64,000 bases of DNA. Origin: an uncultured Caulobacteraceae bacterium. Its GTDB lineage: Bacteria; Pseudomonadota; Alphaproteobacteria; Caulobacterales; Caulobacteraceae. The position numbers and the translations under genes are program-made. Below the pieces are notes generated by a model, which saw only the letters and a list, made by a program, of their open reading frames with translations, was not told the DNA's origin and made no database searches. Shown here in pieces: positions 3,749-55,638 of the stretch; the first letter of the stretch is position 1; each line of letters starts with the position of its first letter. Location of the stretch: positions 186,001-250,000 of the forward strand of contig CAKZPF010000006.1 in assembly GCA_937138625.1 (NCBI GenBank), written 5' to 3'.

Positions 3749-4180
3749 CTAGTTCTGGCCCGGTGTGTAGGGCTTGCCTGAACAGGGCATAACGCCGGTG
3801 TCATGCGCTTGGCTGAATTTTTCTCGTAACCAATAGGACTGGCTGTCAAGATACAGCAAGGTGTTGTCCTCTACGGGGCCACTGTTGAACTCAGGCTGGT
3901 TGACCCACCAGTCATGGTAATCTCTCAAGAGCTGTTCGGTCTCACAAAAATCCAAGACACCATCTAGATTGCCATAGATGCCGTCGTATATTTCTATGAA
4001 TTTTTCGGCTTCCTTGATGCTCAGTTCGGGATCATCATCCAGGCTGACCCGCGTGCGAGCATATTGATTGATCAGACTGAGTAACTGCTCTTCATCCGAC
4101 GGGAATTTCTTATGTGCGGTGTTGTGCAGGCCACATATGGCTTGGGCATCGATGTGGGGAAAAACAGGGATGGGGGGCAT
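3749..4180 (-). CDS. Unrecognised protein with degenerate EF-hand-like pair
   Basis: No family was recognised. The 143-residue protein has no signal peptide or membrane segment. Around residues 45-80 it carries LDDDPELSIKEAEKFIEIYDG followed by NLDGVLDFCETE, which aligns by eye with the EF-hand region of the protein encoded at 52333-52920, although the first loop lacks the usual Gly and the second has an insertion. The C-terminus is rich in aromatic residues. GGAG lies 7 nt before the ATG and a TTGACA/TATTCT promoter lies upstream. It is convergent with mltA and divergent from smr, two genes that are normally adjacent and co-oriented in this order, so it looks like an insertion. A real gene is likely; calcium binding is only a guess. 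Confidence 0.75.
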   Translation of the reverse strand: MPPIPVFPHIDAQAICGLHNTAHKKFPSDEEQLLSLINQYARTRVSLDDDPELSIKEAEKFIEIYDGIYGNLDGVLDFCETEQLLRDYHDWWVNQPEFNSGPVEDNTLLYLDSQSYWLREKFSQAHDTGVMPCSGKPYTPGQN

Positions 4181-7098: not shown

Positions 7099-8004
7099 AT
7101 GGACCAGACCTTGCCACCCGTATCGGATCAGATCGCCGACTTGCCCACTGACTTGCCCACCCGTGCCCGGCACTATCAGCACATGGCCGAGATGCTGGCC
7201 TATCTGTGTGAAAATTGGCACCGACAGCCGCGGCTTGAGGATTTGGCGGCGCGCATGGGCCTCAGCCCTAGCCATTTTCAAAAGCTGTTTTGCCACTGGG
7301 CTGGTGTCAGCCCCAAGGCCTTGGTGGGCAGTTTGACGGTGGCCGAAGCGCGGCAGTGTTTGTTGGCGGGGGCGAGCGTTGAGGAAGCGAGCGATCACAC
7401 GCGCTTGTCCTCACCATCCCGGCTTTATGATCTGTGTGTGCGTCATGAGGGCTTGACGCCGGGGGCCCTGCGTCAGCGCGGGGCGGGCTTGGTGTTCAAA
7501 ACCGGGGTGGCGCCCTGTCCCTTTGGTTTGGCGGCGGTATTGCTGGCCCCCAAGGGCATTGCAGCGCTTGGGTTTGCAAACCTCGGCGAGGAAGAGGCCG
7601 CCTTGGCGGATCTGCAGGCGCGTTATCCCCAAGCTGAATTTATCGAAGACGAAGCGGCCTGTCAGCAGGCAGTGGCGGGGCTGTTTCCCCCAAGCCGTGC
7701 CGTGGCCTCGGCGAACTTGGCGCTTTATGGCCCACCCTTTCATCTGCAGGTCTGGAAGGCGTTGTTGGCCATCCCGCCTGGGCAAACCACGACCTATGGC
7801 GTTTTGGCCAAGGCAATTGGCAAACCCACAGCCGCCCGCGCCGTCGGGGCCGCCGTTGGGGCCAATCCGGTATCTTGGTTGATCCCGTGTCACCGGGTGT
7901 TGGCCTCGGATGGGCGTTTGAACGGCTATCATTGGGGCTTGCCGCGCAAGGCGGCCATGCTGAGCTATGAGGAGCCGGCCTACGCCACAGGATCCGATCA
8001 ATAG
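7099..8004 (+). CDS. Ada-like protein: AraC-type HTH plus O6-alkylguanine-DNA methyltransferase
   Basis: A two-domain repair/regulatory protein. Residues ~30-125 form an AraC-type helix-turn-helix (LEDLAARMGLSPSHFQKLF then SPSRLYDLC), and residues ~130-295 a suicide methyltransferase that moves the alkyl group from O6-methylguanine to its own Cys in the PCHRVLASDG motif; LNGYHWGLPRKAAML follows as expected. The zinc-binding, phosphotriester-sensing N-terminal domain of E. coli Ada is absent, so methyl-phosphotriester induction in the E. coli manner is unlikely. The start is uncertain: ATG 7099 is used; GTG 7069 would add 10 residues. Confidence 0.88.
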   Translation: MDQTLPPVSDQIADLPTDLPTRARHYQHMAEMLAYLCENWHRQPRLEDLAARMGLSPSHFQKLFCHWAGVSPKALVGSLTVAEARQCLLAGASVEEASDHTRLSSPSRLYDLCVRHEGLTPGALRQRGAGLVFKTGVAPCPFGLAAVLLAPKGIAALGFANLGEEEAALADLQARYPQAEFIEDEAACQQAVAGLFPPSRAVASANLALYGPPFHLQVWKALLAIPPGQTTTYGVLAKAIGKPTAARAVGAAVGANPVSWLIPCHRVLASDGRLNGYHWGLPRKAAMLSYEEPAYATGSDQ

Positions 8005-8504
8005 CGGGCAGGAAGCGGGGTCCAGATCACCTCAGCCGGTGCTGATAAATCGTTGTCGTGATAGCTGTAAATTTCGTGGCGTGCGACCGTGTTGACATCG
8101 TTTGATGGCAAGGTCTCGTTTTTCACATAGGCCACCAAGTCAAAGGAATTGGGGCTTTCGCCAGCTTCGGGCGCGTATTGCAGGTGGCGTTCGCTTTGGA
8201 TGATGATCTGATCCGGTTGGTCATCCCGGTCATCGGTCCGAAACACCATGTTGGCGGTGCTGCGATCCGTATGACTGGCCAGTGACCAATAGCGTTGGGT
8301 CGCGGATTTGGCTTTTTCTTCGGGTGTTAAAGGGTTCACGACACGAAACTCGGAGGTGACATTATGGCGTTGCCCTGTCTCGGCCACATCCAAATAGACC
8401 TGACCCGTGTCAAAATCGACCGTCAGCAGGTCCAACTCTGCGGACGCTTTGCCATTGTAATCCGCATGCACAGGCATGGTGACGCTGCTGTTCGGTAAGG
8501 TCAT
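7998..8504 (-). CDS. Unrecognised protein, paralogue of the next gene
   Basis: No family was recognised. The 168-residue product lacks a signal peptide and membrane segments and looks beta-rich. It aligns by eye with the neighbour at 8634-9125: LDLLTVDFDTGQVYL versus LDTVTVDFKNRTITA; VTSEF versus LTNEF; STANMVFRTDDRDDQPDQIIIQS versus STAGVVFRFDECDLTPDRLYIQS is the strongest block, and both end in a YxDN...VW...P.R pattern. Its 3' end overlaps the Ada-like gene by 7 bases in convergent orientation. A candidate promoter (TTGCCT, 17 nt, TACTCT) lies upstream. Real gene likely from the paralogy; function unknown. Confidence 0.75.
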   Translation of the reverse strand: MTLPNSSVTMPVHADYNGKASAELDLLTVDFDTGQVYLDVAETGQRHNVTSEFRVVNPLTPEEKAKSATQRYWSLASHTDRSTANMVFRTDDRDDQPDQIIIQSERHLQYAPEAGESPNSFDLVAYVKNETLPSNDVNTVARHEIYSYHDNDLSAPAEVIWTPLPARY

Positions 8505-8633: not shown

Positions 8634-9125
8634 TTATTCGCTACGGTAACTGGCAAACCGTGAAGGAATGGGGCCGTTCACTTGATCAGGCCAGCCTTCA
8701 TATGTGTTCCACACATCGCGCTGAGAGCGGAGCCCCCCATTGTTATCATAATAGGTGATGACTTCGGCGGGATAATTGGGGTTCAAGGGCTCGCCGTCCG
8801 TCAAGCGGTTGCTTTGAATATAAAGCCGGTCTGGGGTCAGATCGCATTCGTCAAAACGAAAGACCACACCCGCTGTGCTAGGGTTGGTCTTGCTTTGGAC
8901 CATCCAGCTGTCCACCTGTTTCCCATGGGGTTTGTCATGCGCCGGCAGGGGCAGAGTTTCAAACTCGTTGGTCAGGTCGACGCGGCGGCCATCTTCGCCC
9001 ATGACAGCGGTGATGGTGCGGTTTTTGAAATCGACGGTCACGGTATCCAGAATGTCTGAATATTGACGATCGTGGTCGATGTGGGCCTTAAAACTGACTT
9101 GGCCTGAGCCTGGGATTCCAGACAT
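8634..9125 (-). CDS. Unrecognised protein, paralogue of the previous gene
   Basis: No family was recognised. The 163-residue product shares several blocks with the protein at 7998-8504 (TVDF, LTNEF, PSTAGVVFRFDE, PDRLYIQSN, YYDN) and looks like a beta-rich, soluble, cytoplasmic or unconventionally exported protein. The start is set at the ATG with GGAGGG at 5-6-nt spacing; an in-frame ATG 20 codons earlier has no such site. A TTGACC/TATATT element lies upstream and a strong terminator downstream. The pair sits between the Ada-like gene and hslU; a local duplication is the simplest origin. Confidence 0.78.
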   Translation of the reverse strand: MSGIPGSGQVSFKAHIDHDRQYSDILDTVTVDFKNRTITAVMGEDGRRVDLTNEFETLPLPAHDKPHGKQVDSWMVQSKTNPSTAGVVFRFDECDLTPDRLYIQSNRLTDGEPLNPNYPAEVITYYDNNGGLRSQRDVWNTYEGWPDQVNGPIPSRFASYRSE

Positions 9126-9158
9126 AATTCCCTCCAATTGTGCAGAATTTACTATGGA

Positions 9159-9185
9159 AATATAAAGATGTCCGGCAAAGGTCAA
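9159..9185 (-). promoter_or_regulatory. Candidate promoter for the gene at 8634-9125
   Basis: On the minus strand, TTGACC (9180-9185) is followed by TATATT (9159-9164) at a short 15-nt spacer, or by TATTTC (9157-9162) at 17 nt. The region is AT-rich, in contrast to its surroundings. Confidence 0.4.
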
Positions 9186-37968: not shown

Positions 37969-38988
37969 TTAGGCTTGCCAGAAGCCGACGATCTCTTTGG
38001 TGCGTTTGACAACCGGGCCGGCGATGGTGCGGGCGCGTTCCGCCCCGCGCATCAAGGTGGCGTCCAGGTGCTGAGGTTCCGCCAACAATTGGGCCATTTT
38101 TTGACGCACGGGCCCCAGACGGTCGATCAGCACCTCGGTCAAGGCGGGTTTGAAGGCACCAAAGCCTTGCCCGGCATAATTGGCCAGCACCTCGGCCTTG
38201 GTTTGATCGCTTAGGGCGGCGAAGATCCCCACCAGATTGTCGGCTTCGGGCCGGGCGGCCAGGTCATCGGGATTGTCCGGCAAGGGCTCGGGGTCGGTTT
38301 TGGCTTTTTTGATTTTTTTGGCGATGTCATCATCACTGTCTTTCAGCGTGATGCGACTGAGGTCTGAAGGATCAGACTTCGACATCTTTTGCGTCCCGTC
38401 CCGCAGGCTCATGACCCGTGGCGCTGGGCCGCCGATCAGGGGCTCGGGGATGGGGAAAAAGTCAGGCACATTGAAATCTTGGTTGAACTTGCCGGCAATG
38501 TCGCGCGCAAGTTCGAGGTGTTGTTTCTGATCCTCGCCCACCGGCACATGGGTGGCATGATACAGCAAGATGTCGGCGGCCATCAGCACGGGATAGACAT
38601 ACAAACCCACCGAGGCCTTTTCCTTGTTTTTTCCTGCCTTGTCCTTGAACTGGGTCATGCGATTGAGCCACCCGATGCGGGCCACACAGTTGAAGATCCA
38701 GGCCAGCTCGGCATGTTCCGGTACGGCAGATTGGGCGAAAATGGCGGCCTGCCCGTCATCAACGCCGGCGGCCAGATACGCGGCGGCGATTTCCCGCGTT
38801 TGCTGAGCCAGGGCTTTCGGGTCTTGGGGCACGGTGATGGCGTGCAGATCGACAACACAATAAAGGCAATCGTGGCTGTCTTGCAGATCCACAAAGCGCT
38901 TGATGGCACCCAGATAATTGCCCAAATGCAGATTGCCGGTGGGCTGCACGCCGGACAACACGCGGGGCATGTGATGAATATCGCTCAT
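37969..38988 (-). CDS. trpS: Tryptophanyl-tRNA synthetase
   Basis: Class I aminoacyl-tRNA synthetase charging tRNA-Trp. In 339 residues: [21 protein letters not shown] with the HIGH-like motif near residue 19, [39 protein letters not shown], and the KMSKS loop [18 protein letters not shown] near residue 200. The ATG at 38988 was chosen; one lies 6 codons downstream and another frame extension upstream lacks family similarity. In this lineage trpS is normally followed upstream by murJ; here the two orphan genes lie between. Confidence 0.94.
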
Positions 38989-39062
38989 GACTGCGCTTGT
39001 GCGCGTTTCCCGCAAAGGGGTCAAGATCGTTTGGTATTTCGGCACACTGTCCCGACGCCATC

Positions 39063-39090
39063 TTGACAAAATAGGAATAAGTGTTACTCT
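39063..39090 (+). promoter_or_regulatory. Candidate promoter of the paralogous gene pair
   Basis: A perfect -35 TTGACA (39063-39068), 16-nt spacer and -10 TACTCT (39085-39090), about 37 bases before the GTG start at 39127, in an AT-rich stretch. The -10 context GTTACTCT is shared with the promoter upstream of 8504. Confidence 0.5.
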
Positions 39091-39126
39091 GGCTTTTTTA
39101 TTTGATTGTATTTGGAGATTTTTATC

Positions 39127-40197
39127 GTGACTGGTGTCGGTGCCCCTGCGGCTGGCGAAGCCCTTCTACATACACAGATGGATAACCTTGACCAAGGGCA
39201 GCGGGCCTCAGCCTTTGATGGGGCCACCCAGGCGGCCACATTGGTCACTGACCCCCCCAAAGATGTCGTATTGGTTATGGACAGTGCACACGGTTATGCC
39301 GGCTGGTCGGGAAAGGGGACCAATCCCTTATATGATGCCAAGCATTTCATACATACTCAGGGTAATGTGCCGGAGCACGGTGCAACCCTTTATGATTTGG
39401 ATGATGCTGACCCGGCGTTGCTGCATAGTTTTGCCGAGACCGACAATGAATATCTTTATATCGAAAATAGGGTCTATGATCATTTGATTGCCAAGGGGTC
39501 GATCGAAGATCTGATCATCAGCGGCCACGGTCTGGGCGTTAGCTCCTATTACGGGGACAGCCTGGTGCCCATCAAAACCTTGCAAGCCATTGAACGCGCC
39601 ATGGAACGCGCACGCGCAGAGGGCCATGATGTTGAGATTGAAAACAGCATTCAATTCCCCGGCTGTGGTTCGTTTAGGCGTCTGGATGAAAATGAAATTG
39701 CCTATATGCGGGATTTCAGTTTGCGCACAGGCATCGATCTGACGGGGCAGTTGGATAGTGTGATCGTTGGCCAAGGGGGCTCACTTGATAGCAAGGTTAT
39801 CACCAAGGATTCCTATCGCGTGACCTTCAAGGATGGCATTCCCTATATTGACTTGTCTTTACATCAGCCGGAACACAACAGCCACTACAACGGTCAGATC
39901 AGGTCTAGTCTATATGATGGGGCCGTTGAGTTGCGTTATTATATCCCCGAGTACGCACTCGACATCGTCAATCGTCCAGGTTTTGATCCTGACGATTTCG
40001 CCAGCTACCAAGAGCAAGCTTTGGACAATATTCGAGACCTTCATAAGGAATACAACGAGGTCTATTTTGGCAACGGTTGGCTTGAGACCCACATTGGAGT
40101 GACGGCTGAACAGGCAGCTATGAACAAAATGGTCCGCTTTCGGTATTATGAAACCGGTGGTGTCGAGCAGCCCCAAAATGCGTGGGCTCAGAAATGA
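39127..40197 (+). CDS. Putative clan-CD-like (caspase-fold) protein with His-Gly/Cys dyad, first of a pair
   Basis: No family could be named with certainty. The 356-residue protein has, at residues ~125-200, [17 protein letters not shown] (His134), then 46 residues on IQFPGCGSF (Cys180), and [12 protein letters not shown]. This hydrophobic-strand/HG...GC layout, followed by a TG-rich strand, is the pattern of clan-CD peptidases and of the DUF4347 and CHAT-type domains. No signal peptide is seen. The C-terminal half ([29 protein letters not shown]) is shared with the next gene. GTG start with GGAG at 9-nt spacing. Protease activity is inference. Confidence 0.72.
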
Positions 40198-41300
40198 CGA
40201 CTGTGGATGGGCCTGCTTCTCAGCATATCCTGGAAAGCGCCGAGCGCTACAGTGCTCCCCAGGGGGCTTCGGCTTTTGAAAACGTGGAATCGGTGGCGGG
40301 TGTGCGGAATCATCCCAAGCCCGAAAACGTCATTATTCGTTTACATTCCCGGCATCACACCGAGCGCGGGTTTGAAAACGAAGACATCTCAAATCCCTTC
40401 GTTGAACTTTTTTACAAGGACTTAGCCAACAGCAACAGCGACTGTTATGAATGTGGTGCCCCCCAATACAGTTATGATGATCTGAGTGTTCAGGAAGCGG
40501 CCTGTCTGTCCCAGTCCGATGCGGAATATGAGTTTATCGAAGACCAAGTCTATCAGCACCTCGTCACAAACGGTTCCATCGGGACCTTGATTATATCAGG
40601 ACACGGCACAGGGAGTGGAGGTCTGACCAGTGCACACTATGGTGATGAGGTTCTGCTGCGGCCAGCGTTGCAAGCGGTGGAGCGAGGTCTGAGGCGTGCC
40701 CAAACGGAATGCCCCGAAGTGACCATAGAAGACGGTGTTCATATCTTAGGGTGCAGCACCTTCAAATTCCTTGATGAAGACAAAAATATAGCCTTCGCCC
40801 GTGAGTTTAGCGTGCGAACGGGACTCGAGCTCAAAGGTGAGATTGAGGACACTCGGGTTGTAAGCGGTGGGGGGCGTAACGGTTTTGGTGCTGTAAACGC
40901 TCAGCACAGTGTGCGCTATCACACCGTGGTCTTTAAAGATGGCATTCCCTACGTCGATTTGCGCCCCTTCTCGTCGGACTCCTCCACGCTGTCTTATGGG
41001 CCGGAGACGGGGCAGATTGATGGCATTTCGTATGCTTGGGGCGATACCGAGGTGATTTATAGGGTGCCTGAGTATGCCCTTGATATCGTCAACACTCCAA
41101 ATTTCGATCCAGACGATCTGGCCTCTTATCAGGAAGCGGTTCTTGATGTCATGGCACAAGACCATGGTCGATACGGGTTTTGGCTTCAGGATCATGCGGG
41201 CGTCACGGCCGCCCAAGCTGAAATCAATGCCCAAACCCATTCACGGCTATTTCAGTCAGGGGGAACATTTCACCCCGATGCGATGTGGTCAGACCGCTAA
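40194..41300 (+). CDS. Putative clan-CD-like (caspase-fold) protein with His-Gly/Cys dyad, second of a pair
   Basis: Paralogue of the preceding protein, translationally coupled by a 4-base ATGA overlap. The 368 residues contain GSIGTLIISGHGTGSGG (His137), VHILGCSTFKF (Cys187) and FAREFSVRTGLELKGEIED, and later FKDGIPYVDLRP and [20 protein letters not shown], which match the first copy closely. N-terminal ~110 residues differ between the copies and here include a Cys-x2-Cys (CYECG). No signal peptide or membrane segment. Both putative catalytic residues are kept in both copies, which argues against one being a dead copy. Its stop overlaps murJ by 4 bases, convergent. Confidence 0.72.
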   Translation: MTTVDGPASQHILESAERYSAPQGASAFENVESVAGVRNHPKPENVIIRLHSRHHTERGFENEDISNPFVELFYKDLANSNSDCYECGAPQYSYDDLSVQEAACLSQSDAEYEFIEDQVYQHLVTNGSIGTLIISGHGTGSGGLTSAHYGDEVLLRPALQAVERGLRRAQTECPEVTIEDGVHILGCSTFKFLDEDKNIAFAREFSVRTGLELKGEIEDTRVVSGGGRNGFGAVNAQHSVRYHTVVFKDGIPYVDLRPFSSDSSTLSYGPETGQIDGISYAWGDTEVIYRVPEYALDIVNTPNFDPDDLASYQEAVLDVMAQDHGRYGFWLQDHAGVTAAQAEINAQTHSRLFQSGGTFHPDAMWSDR

Positions 41301-42850
41301 CCCCGGCGGCGCAGGGCCCCCAGAATTTGCTGGGGCGTGATGGCCTTCAGGCTGATGGTCAGCACCAGATACACGCCCCCTGACAGCACCACCAATACGG
41401 CAATCGAGATCACCGAGGGCAGCCCCCCGGCATCGAAATGTTTGGCCAGCATGCTTGAGACCAACAGGGCCATGGCCATTAGGCCCACGCAGCTCAGCGC
41501 CATACGCACCAGCCGCACCTTGCTGTCGGCATCCAGGCCAAAGTCGCCGCGCCGCTTCAGGGTCCAGATCAGCAAACTGACATTGACCCAGGCCGCCAGG
41601 GCCGTGGCCATGGCAATGCCCACATGCCCAATCAGCGGAAACAAAATCAACGAGCCGATGATGTTGGTGGCCACGGAACAGCTGGCATAAATCAATGGGG
41701 TTTTGGTATCTTCTCGCGCGAAATAAGCAGGCGTGAGCACCTTGATCAGCACATAGGCCGGCAAGCCCATGGCAAAAAACGACAAGGCCCGAGCCGTTTC
41801 ATAAGAAGCCGTGCGATCAAAGGCCCCGCGCTCAAACAGCGGCACGATGATTTCAAGCGGCACCACATACAGCGCCACCGCACACGGCAAGGTCAGGAAC
41901 ATGGCAAACTCGACGGCCCGGTTCAGCGCCATGCGGGCCCCCACATCATCATTATGGGCAAAGCGTTGCGAAAGCGCGGGCAGCAGCACCATGCCGACCG
42001 CAATGCCCACCACACCCAACGGCAATTGGTACAGGCGATCGGCATAATATAAATACGAGGCCGCACTGGCCTGATGGGTGGCGATGATGGTGCCCACCAG
42101 CACATTGATTTGGGTGACACCTGCCGACATGGCCCCCGGCACCGTCAGGGCAAAAAACTGTTTCACCCGAGGAGTGATGCCATAAAAGCGAAACGGCAAC
42201 AGGATCTTGGCGCGCTTAGCGGCGGCGATCATCCACAACAGCTGCAACCCGCCTGAAACCACCAAAGCCCAGGCCAAAAAGCGCCCGGTGGTGGCTTGGT
42301 CAACGTCGGCGATATGGGCGGCCACCAAGGCCCCGATCAGCATGATGTTCAACAAAATGGGCGCAGCCGCCGGGGCGGCAAACCGCCCCATGGCGGTCAG
42401 CACACCTGCGTATAGCGCGCACAAACCCATGAACAGCAAATAGGGAAAGGTGATGCGCGCGAGCTCGATGGTGAAAGCAAACTTGGTGGCGTCGTCTTGA
42501 AAGCCCGCCGCTACACCGCCCATCAACAGCGGCATCCAAATGACCACAGCAATGGAAAACACCAACAACACACTGGCCAGCAAAACCTGGGCGGTCATGG
42601 CAAAGCGCCGGGCGGCCTCGGGGCCCTCGACGGCGTGGGCTTTGGAAAACAAAGGCACAAAAGCGGCCGAAAAGGCCCCTTCGGCAAACAGAGAGCGAAA
42701 CAGGTTGGGGAAGCGCTGGGCCACCACAAAGGCATCATTGACCCAACCCGCCCCCAAGACCGCCGCCGTCAGCACATCGCGCACAAAGCCCAAAATCCGG
42801 CTGAGCAAGGTGAAAAACCCCACGACCGAGGCAGAACGCAGCAGGCTCAT
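41297..42850 (-). CDS. murJ: Lipid II flippase MurJ
   Basis: MurJ (MviN) flips the peptidoglycan precursor lipid II across the inner membrane. The 517-residue protein is a MOP-superfamily transporter with about 14 membrane segments; the conserved N-terminus LLSRILGFVRDVLTAAVLGAG, PNLFRSLFAEGAFSAAFVPLF and LPLGVVGIAVGMVLLPALSQ are visible. The start overlaps the glnD stop by 4 bases. glnD-murJ is a standard alphaproteobacterial pair. Confidence 0.96.
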   Translation of the reverse strand: MSLLRSASVVGFFTLLSRILGFVRDVLTAAVLGAGWVNDAFVVAQRFPNLFRSLFAEGAFSAAFVPLFSKAHAVEGPEAARRFAMTAQVLLASVLLVFSIAVVIWMPLLMGGVAAGFQDDATKFAFTIELARITFPYLLFMGLCALYAGVLTAMGRFAAPAAAPILLNIMLIGALVAAHIADVDQATTGRFLAWALVVSGGLQLLWMIAAAKRAKILLPFRFYGITPRVKQFFALTVPGAMSAGVTQINVLVGTIIATHQASAASYLYYADRLYQLPLGVVGIAVGMVLLPALSQRFAHNDDVGARMALNRAVEFAMFLTLPCAVALYVVPLEIIVPLFERGAFDRTASYETARALSFFAMGLPAYVLIKVLTPAYFAREDTKTPLIYASCSVATNIIGSLILFPLIGHVGIAMATALAAWVNVSLLIWTLKRRGDFGLDADSKVRLVRMALSCVGLMAMALLVSSMLAKHFDAGGLPSVISIAVLVVLSGGVYLVLTISLKAITPQQILGALRRRG

Positions 42851-52332: not shown

Positions 52333-52920
52333 TCAAAGCGTGATGTCACTGTAATCGATCTCCTGGAAATCGGGAAAATCGAATAGGCGTCGATCGTCAC
52401 AGCTTTGGGCGCGGGCTTGATTATTCTGAATGGTGGTTTGCTGCTGGGGGCTGAGATCGAGTGTGTATTGCCGCGCTTGGCATTGGTCTTTCAGGAAGTT
52501 TTCAGCATCCTGATGGCGACTGTGGTTATAAGGAATGCGTTTTTGGCGCTTGAATATATCCTTGAGACTGGCGTGCAGCACACCGCCGAGTGTGGTATAA
52601 TTGGTTTGCCGATACTCCCCTAAAAATATACTGTCCTCGGCAATGATGCGCTCGTAAGTGGACAGGGTGACGGCCTGCTCCTCGGGGTCTAGGCGACCAT
52701 CCCCATTGTCATCAAACCGATCAATGAAGGCTTTGGCCTCGGCCTCGGAGACGCCATCGTCTGTAGACCAAATCCAATCGTTCCAATGCTTTTGGCTGCT
52801 TTTGTCTGTGTCGGCCATGCGATTGAAAAACAGAGCGCGTTTGTCCTCCACCGCTTCCGGCATCATACCCATGATGTCTTCTGCGTCTATCGACAATGGT
52901 ATGGATGGTGATGTCGTCAT
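52333..52920 (-). CDS. EF-hand protein of unknown function
   Basis: A 195-residue protein with one canonical EF-hand calcium loop, FDDNGDGRLDPEEQAV (D70, N72, D74, G75, E81), preceded by a degenerate one (STDDGVSEAEAKAF). The N- and C-terminal parts are unrecognised and mostly polar; two Cys occur in the last 60 residues. No signal peptide is seen. The EF-hand pair aligns by eye with the protein at 3749-4180. AGAAGAG precedes the chosen ATG; another ATG lies 5 codons upstream. It lies between the response regulator and comM. Confidence 0.78.
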   Translation of the reverse strand: MTTSPSIPLSIDAEDIMGMMPEAVEDKRALFFNRMADTDKSSQKHWNDWIWSTDDGVSEAEAKAFIDRFDDNGDGRLDPEEQAVTLSTYERIIAEDSIFLGEYRQTNYTTLGGVLHASLKDIFKRQKRIPYNHSRHQDAENFLKDQCQARQYTLDLSPQQQTTIQNNQARAQSCDDRRLFDFPDFQEIDYSDITL

Positions 52921-53005
52921 ATTTGCTCTTCTCATGCGTTATGGCTGGAAGTGATAGCGCAAGTCTTTGAAAACGGAAAGGTCTCGGGGCACACTTGCTT
53001 GCAAG

Positions 53006-54684: not shown

Positions 54685-55638
54685 ATGGGCAGTGGTGGAC
54701 AGAGTGTCGGGGCGCAAGGGGCAGGTGAGGCCGTGTATCTAGAGGGGTATCGAGAACCTGATATTCCCCGTCGTGGCGGTGTGCCTGCGCAGGGTGACCC
54801 TATTGATCTTCTGACGGCAGAGGATGATTTTGCTAGGTTATTTAAGCGCGCGACTTTTGATCATGGTGTGAAGCAGGAATATACCTATAATCATTTGGAA
54901 GAAAAATACGAACAAGGGTATATTGAATCCGGCGATAACCGTGATCGGTATACACTTCCAACCATTCATAAATTTATTAGAGATGCAGACCTTTATGGCT
55001 CGGTGGACGAAATCGGGCAGTATTCAAAAGACGATGTGGGTTTGTATGCCTTGCACCAGATCGGAGAAGAGCACGCAGCCAGCCAAGACTGGATCCAGTC
55101 GATGACTGAAACGGTTGGGGACAAGATCGAAGCCCTGCAAGATAAAATCAATAATTATAGCAGAATAATCAGTGAGTTAAAAAAGGAAATAAAAAACGGG
55201 GGGGACAAGATTGAGCTGGGCAGGCTTATTCAAGGCCTTCTAGATAGGCAGGTGCAGTACGGTGGGCTAATCACTCTCCTAAAAACCAACCTGCCCATCG
55301 AGATCACCAAGCGCGAGAACGTGGCCGAGACCCGTATTCAGTTCTACGAGGCCATGGCCGAGGCCAGCTTTGACGGGGAAGAGGTTCGCCTTGAGCGCAA
55401 AGGGCGTGGCGAGGCCTTTGGCGGGTCTTTTTCGGAAAAGGGTGTGGGGGCGTTCTGGAGTGCTGATACATACCAGCAGCTTTACAACCCCACGGCGATG
55501 AATGTGGTCAGAACCCCAAACCCCGATGACCAGCCCAACGATTGCGAGTGTAACCTCGATCCCATCATTAAACGCTTCGAGGACGTACAAGCTAACTACC
55601 GCGAGCCTACGCTCGAGGATCTGATGGGCACCGATTAG
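54685..55638 (+). CDS. Unrecognised, AT-rich orphan gene with coiled-coil region
   Basis: No family was recognised. The 317-residue protein has no signal peptide; it opens with a Gly-rich stretch (MGSGGQSVGAQGAGEA), has a helical, charged middle (~145-200: VGDKIEALQDKINNYSR; ISELKKEIKNG) suggestive of a coiled coil, and a C-terminal CECNLDPIIKRFEDVQANYRE. Base composition of the first two thirds is clearly more AT-rich than its neighbours, with A-runs, a sign of recent acquisition; the last third is GC-rich like the host. GGAG lies 8 nt before the ATG. It lies between comM and gshB, normally adjacent, on the opposite strand. Confidence 0.78.
   Translation: MGSGGQSVGAQGAGEAVYLEGYREPDIPRRGGVPAQGDPIDLLTAEDDFARLFKRATFDHGVKQEYTYNHLEEKYEQGYIESGDNRDRYTLPTIHKFIRDADLYGSVDEIGQYSKDDVGLYALHQIGEEHAASQDWIQSMTETVGDKIEALQDKINNYSRIISELKKEIKNGGDKIELGRLIQGLLDRQVQYGGLITLLKTNLPIEITKRENVAETRIQFYEAMAEASFDGEEVRLERKGRGEAFGGSFSEKGVGAFWSADTYQQLYNPTAMNVVRTPNPDDQPNDCECNLDPIIKRFEDVQANYREPTLEDLMGTD

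Follow-up and report, generated by a model that had tools for sequence, protein, structure and literature searches.

An islet of two overlapping, paralogous genes, whose products have a histidine and a cysteine in common at aligned positions, is established between trpS and murJ in the genome of an uncultured Caulobacteraceae bacterium. We put at roughly 0.58 the probability that the two proteins, here called A and B, are lineage-restricted, co-translated intracellular His/Cys peptidases that belong to a branch near clan CD without a sequence assignment, with a fold and a dyad that are both predicted. All positions refer to the window, which is the whole stretch of 64,000 nucleotides that was analysed (contig CAKZPF010000006.1, positions 186,001 to 250,000).

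A pair of paralogs with predicted translational coupling

ORF A (39127-40197, + strand) runs from a GTG at 39127 to a TGA at 40195-40197 and encodes a putative caspase-fold protein of 356 amino acids, and ORF B (40194-41300, + strand) runs from an ATG at 40194 to a TAA at 41298-41300 and encodes its putative caspase-fold paralog of 368 amino acids. A GGAG at 39114-39117 (+), 9 nt 5' of the GTG of ORF A, resembles a Shine-Dalgarno sequence and may have that role. The original prediction called the pair translationally coupled, and the DNA agrees with this: the stop of A and the start of B overlap in the ATGA at 40194-40197 (+), and translation of B is expected to be coupled to that of A. At the other end, the stop of B overlaps the stop of the convergent murJ gene.

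The two proteins align from end to end with 41% identity (MAFFT), and a second aligner found 140 identical residues among 348 aligned, giving an overall value of about 40%. Identity by codon position is 0.53, 0.63, and 0.33 for positions 1, 2, and 3, where 0.28, 0.27, and 0.27 are expected. As the first two positions are far more alike than the near-random third, both genes have been under selection for their protein products ever since they arose by an ancient duplication. The dN value is about 0.61 and dS was not computable, as expected at saturation. It had been claimed that the N-termini differ, but residues 1 to 44 of A can be aligned with B (0.36 identical across 42 aligned residues) and the lowest identity is found elsewhere, at A45-105 (0.21). 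Between the second helix and the His loop, identity rises to 0.62. Conservation peaks not at the dyad but in the C-terminal block A271-300 (the EYALDIVN region), which is 0.77 identical; according to the paralog alignment, the conserved C-terminal block within it occupies 39949-40014 (+) in A and 41070-41135 (+) in B. A hairpin corresponding to predicted strands 6 and 7 is also conserved, as FKDGIPY.DL in A (39826-39855, +) and FKDGIPYVDL in B (40932-40961, +).

Genomic setting

Both genes lie on the strand opposite to trpS and murJ, among neighbours that read as housekeeping genes (Pfam was run for three of them). All 60 genomes searched have murJ, and we examined 30 of the loci, one of which is that of the own genome. 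In 25 of the 29 loci from relatives trpS adjoins murJ, and the gap between them is roughly -4 to 1073 bases; in the other four there is no trpS within the locus, and one of these (L118) ends at a contig edge. The junction is short (at most 235 bases) in 23 of the 29 relatives, which supports the claim that the pair is inserted between trpS and murJ. The GC3 of the pair is 0.55, against 0.71 to 0.75 in trpS, murJ, and glnD, and, as there is no relative of the pair in the sets searched either, it looks like a lineage-restricted gain. The islet may be a two-gene operon that was acquired by this lineage. No long repeat flanks it within 38900-41500, and a promoter scan returned sites no more often than chance, with none 5' of A.

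Two relatives (L113 and L116) have longer murJ-trpS gaps, of 582 and 1073 bases, that hold other ORFs, which suggests that this junction may accept insertions repeatedly. Elsewhere in the window, a second tandem paralog pair (7998-8504 and 8634-9185, both - strand; 35% identity over 102 amino acids, E 1e-16) lies in another low-GC islet and has no Pfam match at E 0.1. A further low-GC islet (GC3 0.55) holds a 317-amino-acid protein (54685-55638, +), also with no Pfam match at E 0.1, whose N-terminal VGAQGAGEAV resembles a ten-residue stretch of A at 7 of 10 positions, a likeness that may be due to chance (E 3). Two short ORFs (3749-4180 and 52333-52935, both - strand) show a possible distant similarity to each other (E 0.16); EF-hand models match the second weakly, short of the Pfam cut-off, and do not match the first.

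The His/Cys layout

The original prediction pointed to GSI..LIISGHG and a later GC in both proteins, and these are present at the positions it gave. In A, the segment at 39496-39528 (+) is predicted to form strand 3, which ends at His134 (codon 39526-39528), and Cys180 (39664-39666, +) is located three residues past predicted strand 4. In B, His137 (40602-40604, +) is at the end of predicted strand 3 and Cys187 (40752-40754, +) is two residues past predicted strand 4. His134 and Cys180 align with His137 and Cys187, confirming that both copies retain the two residues. Cys180 is the only cysteine of A, and among the five cysteines of B only its counterpart Cys187 is common to both proteins; five histidines are common, including His134/His137. 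The Gly beside the putative catalytic His, a clan CD feature, is present as GHG in A and in B. The His-Cys spacing is 46 in A and 50 in B, as had been proposed, and both values fall among those published for clan-CD-type proteins, which are given as 46 for PmC11 (PMC4850288), 49 for MARTX-CPD (PMC4357240), and 45, 54, and 50 for TcdB, Tce1, and Tce2, respectively (PMC13323088). The dyad of clan CD is described as lying at the C-terminal ends of core strands 3 and 4 in all members (PMC4357240).

A strict pattern that was composed after the pair had been seen (a hydrophobic strand, GHG or SHG, 30 to 60 residues, and then hydrophobic residues followed by GC) was matched by 10 of 800 ORFs of at least 200 amino acids; nine of the ten are copies of A or B and one is an unrelated frame in another locus (L121). 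With a looser His/Cys pattern, B was matched and A was not. The layout is real and uncommon, yet alone it is no proof of a family.

Searches for relatives and families

Matches to A or B were obtained in 1 of 100 relatives, 1 of 398 genomes of the order, 2 of 385 of the class, and 4 of 398 of the phylum; these sets overlap, and the own genome is one of the matches in each. Four non-self matches are weak (E 0.0016 to 0.0097), and all were rejected: one overlaps a priA-like gene, apparently in antisense (G316), two are located inside genes that by inspection are dapD-like (G666 and G509), and one contains four stops within the matched stretch (G741). Bacterial genome contigs and viral contigs gave nothing in a pattern-plus-tblastn search, which detects only sequences with a common short peptide pattern, and neither did plasmids and phages searched by tblastn with A and B. 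Sequence searches of the PDB with A and B returned merely unrelated weak rows and no Tce1-type chain. Homologues and conserved partners, which the original prediction proposed to look for, were not found across the collections searched, and no relative of A or B beyond the own genome was seen in any of them; conservation of His and Cys rests on two copies.

There was no match for A or B in NCBIfam, PADLOC, or PHROGs. A Pfam scan of both proteins up to E 10, with the HMMER filters on, gave a single row, unrelated and with B as the query (E 0.19), and no row for CHAT, C14, C13, C11, DUF4347, or Peptidase C80. The own genome likewise contains no C14, CHAT, C13, or DUF4347 match. In a 2025 review, clan CD is described as being defined by structure and function and not by sequence (PMC12445089).

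For profile comparisons we used alignments of 21 of 23 DUF4347 loci, 23 of 30 C14 loci, 24 of 30 CHAT loci, and 6 of 7 C13 loci, the omitted ones being mostly partial, stop-containing, or contig-edge matches. Comparison of the combined A and B core with DUF4347 by hhalign gave a score of 24.98 (E 0.0043 for this single comparison; probability, 8%) over 31 columns of the Cys half (strand, GC, helix, and TG), in which GC pairs with GC and TG with TG. This score was reached by none of 200 column shuffles (best, 23.95) and by none of 80 window ORFs, each of which was used as a single sequence and compared with DUF4347 and C14; the reversed alignment scored 16.3. When A and B were compared singly with DUF4347, their scores were reached by 10 and 2 of the 80 window ORFs, respectively. 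The core scored 20.65 against C14, with SGHG aligned to AGHG, and this was reached by 6 of 200 shuffles and 3 of 80 ORFs, while the reversed core scored 20.5. The scores against CHAT and C13 were reached by 71 and 28 of 200 shuffles, respectively. Using hmmsearch --max with DUF4347, which reported 520 sequences, B came in at rank 19 and A at rank 187, below shuffles, and with C14, CHAT, and C13 the two proteins did no better and fell among the shuffles (A was 19th of 575 with C13). A two-block His/Cys profile, built on the 10 of 21 DUF4347 and 16 of 23 C14 sequences that fitted the motif pattern, with the others dropped, picked His134 and Cys180 in A with either family but other positions in B, and did not place A or B above decoys (9 to 79 of 321 decoys scored equally or higher).

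The likeness to DUF4347 that had been suggested is therefore retained in part: the hhalign result for the Cys half is a marginal link, a hint and no proof of kinship, set against a probability of 8% and the lack of a Pfam match. The suggested likeness to CHAT is not upheld, given that there is no Pfam match and that 71 of the 200 shuffles reach its hhalign score. DUF4347 (PF14252) resembles A and B in having HG, a strand ending in GC, a helix, and TG in equal order. It differs in that 15 of 23 matches in the class lie in frames of at least 800 amino acids, whereas A and B are short, and in a His-Cys spacing of 41 to 44 in the 10 of 21 sequences where it could be measured, compared to 46 and 50. 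Our literature search found nothing that joins DUF4347 with the term "caspase-like." In C14 (caspases and metacaspases), the Cys motif of the bacterial loci is LD[AS]C and not GC; the likeness to A and B is in the SGHG/AGHG pairing and in the structure searches described below. The C11 family (clostripain and PmC11) resembles A, as His133 and Cys179 of PmC11 are reported to be 46 residues apart at strand ends (PMC4850288), but the motif given for C11 is His-Gly...Ala-Cys (PMC12445089) and not Gly-Cys as in A and B.

Predicted fold

Template-free models, of whole A and of the B core, were made from the two-sequence alignment of A and B. The whole-A model has a mean pLDDT of 45.5 and a pTM of 0.49; block means exceed 70 in parts of 111-200 but drop to 41 in 131-140, where His134 is located, and pLDDT is below 50 over A134-145, a stretch that starts at His134. 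The B-core model has a pLDDT of 60.6 and a pTM of 0.66, the five models spanning pLDDT values of 43.6 to 60.6, and falls below 50 over core residues 98 to 113, starting at His98 (His137 of B). Both of these low-confidence models predict the order b-a-b-a-b(His)-a-b(Cys)-a-b-b-b, which is of the caspase type. In the whole-A model, His134 is the last residue of strand 125-134, and Cys180 follows strand 170-177; in the B core, His98 is the last residue of strand 89-98, and Cys148 (Cys187 of B) follows strand 138-146. Both models, at low confidence, therefore show the clan-CD arrangement in which the two residues sit at the C-terminal ends of strands 3 and 4.

Structure searches with these models gave mixed results. 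For the B core, 49 of the best 50 VIA rows are chains of glutamate receptors and the remaining one is a Tce1 chain, with Z values of 6.4 to 7.8; every VIA match has a Z below 8, a level that the tool itself describes as common. The Tce1 chain (9qpe_G, judged to be Tce1 by its numbering) aligns at Z 7.0 and an rmsd of 3.6 over 144 of 178 residues (model residues 3 to 222), with 22 glutamate-receptor rows above it. With the whole-A model, a chain of a caspase-3 complex appears at row 50 (Z 6.4). Foldseek with the B core gave no match at E <= 0.001; caspase entries are 6 of the best 50 rows (five of them caspase-1; E 0.018 to 0.045, TM below 0.35). No caspase is present among the best 50 Foldseek rows for whole A. 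Against viral structures there was no Foldseek match at E <= 0.001, and giant-virus caspase proteins make up 3 of the best 50 weak rows.

Tce1 and Tce2 are described as TcdB-like putative cysteine proteases, C80-like, of the Pseudomonas aeruginosa H3-T6SS (PMC13323088). They resemble the pair in having a compact caspase-like core and a comparable spacing (50 to 54, versus 46 to 50 in A and B), and the Tce1 domain aligns across the whole B core. Unlike Tce1 and Tce2, A and B form a coupled tandem pair with a C-terminal part of their own.

The main alternative, possible but clearly less probable than a peptidase pair, is that A and B are non-proteolytic Rossmann-like alpha/beta proteins (ligand binding or another type of enzyme), with GHG and GC serving as structural turns, and that the caspase likeness reflects a common alternation of strands and helices. 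Glutamate-receptor N-terminal domains align no worse than clan-CD chains with both models, and for whole A a phenazine-biosynthesis protein and Cra also score at least as high. The best Foldseek rows are KaiC for whole A and SUMO E1 and Elp456 for the B core, and among the family profiles C14, CHAT, and C13 gave nothing above controls, with DUF4347 marginal. Against this, the single Cys of A and the GHG are kept at clan-CD strand ends with a spacing in the published range, which would be unexpected for a random Rossmann fold. The pattern on which the original prediction was based is real and nontrivial, and its idea of a clan-CD caspase fold is plausible and partly supported: element order, the positions and spacing of His and Cys, and the caspase and Tce1 rows favor it, while pLDDT is low to middling and Rossmann-like folds of no relation score as well as the caspase-like matches do.

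Possible function and significance

If A and B are indeed such peptidases, they would be soluble, acidic paralogs with a predicted alpha/beta core of the caspase-haemoglobinase type and a predicted helical C-terminal tail. The His at the end of strand 3 would activate the Cys just past strand 4, and this Cys would then attack the peptide bond. The ATGA overlap would yield similar amounts of A and B, and the two proteins would therefore most likely act together in a hetero-oligomer that has two potential active sites, a partnership that we infer from coupling and paralogy. As A and B have no strongly hydrophobic 19-residue stretch, they are most simply placed in the cytosol. Their role may be a regulated accessory or conflict function inside the cell, and whether this is defence, regulation, or some other accessory task is a matter of guesswork. 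It is doubtful, in our estimate, whether one can go as far as a new clan-CD family of obligately paired, co-translated proteins that form a hetero-oligomer via a conserved C-terminal segment of 18 residues and have two differing specificities.

Caspase-like proteases are reported from prokaryotic defence (PMC9729208), and the accessory islet, the two-gene operon, and the caspase-like layout would suit an abortive-infection or other phage-defence module where infection switches on one of the peptidases or both, similar to the caspase-like CHAT protease in Craspase. We consider such a module unlikely, as there is no PADLOC match, no evident sensor or pore partner adjoins the pair, and the neighbours are housekeeping-like. 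A secreted or injected pair of caspase-like effectors, comparable to Tce1 and Tce2 of P. aeruginosa, is the least probable: effector genes commonly take the form of orphan low-GC islets, the pair is such an islet, and the B core is matched in structure by the Tce1 domain over its full length, but the genome, which is 98.8% complete, has no match to VipB (the T6SS sheath, and the T6SS gene searched), its two VirB4-type matches are far from the pair in what by inspection read as Trb-type conjugation loci, and neither A nor B has a hydrophobic N-terminus. Two TrbE/VirB4-type genes with Trb-like neighbours, in loci L130 (G000:C6:86000-104000) and L131 (G000:C3:505000-523000) of one 2.0-Mb genome, do not differ over the initial 70 residues compared, suggesting two related conjugative elements.

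If the reading of A and B as intracellular His/Cys peptidases is wrong, the case would illustrate how far a His/Cys layout alone can mislead. If both the fold and the activity are true, sequence surveys would be overlooking branches of bacterial caspase-like proteases, including coupled pairs, in which the divergence of protease partners could be studied on a small natural scale.
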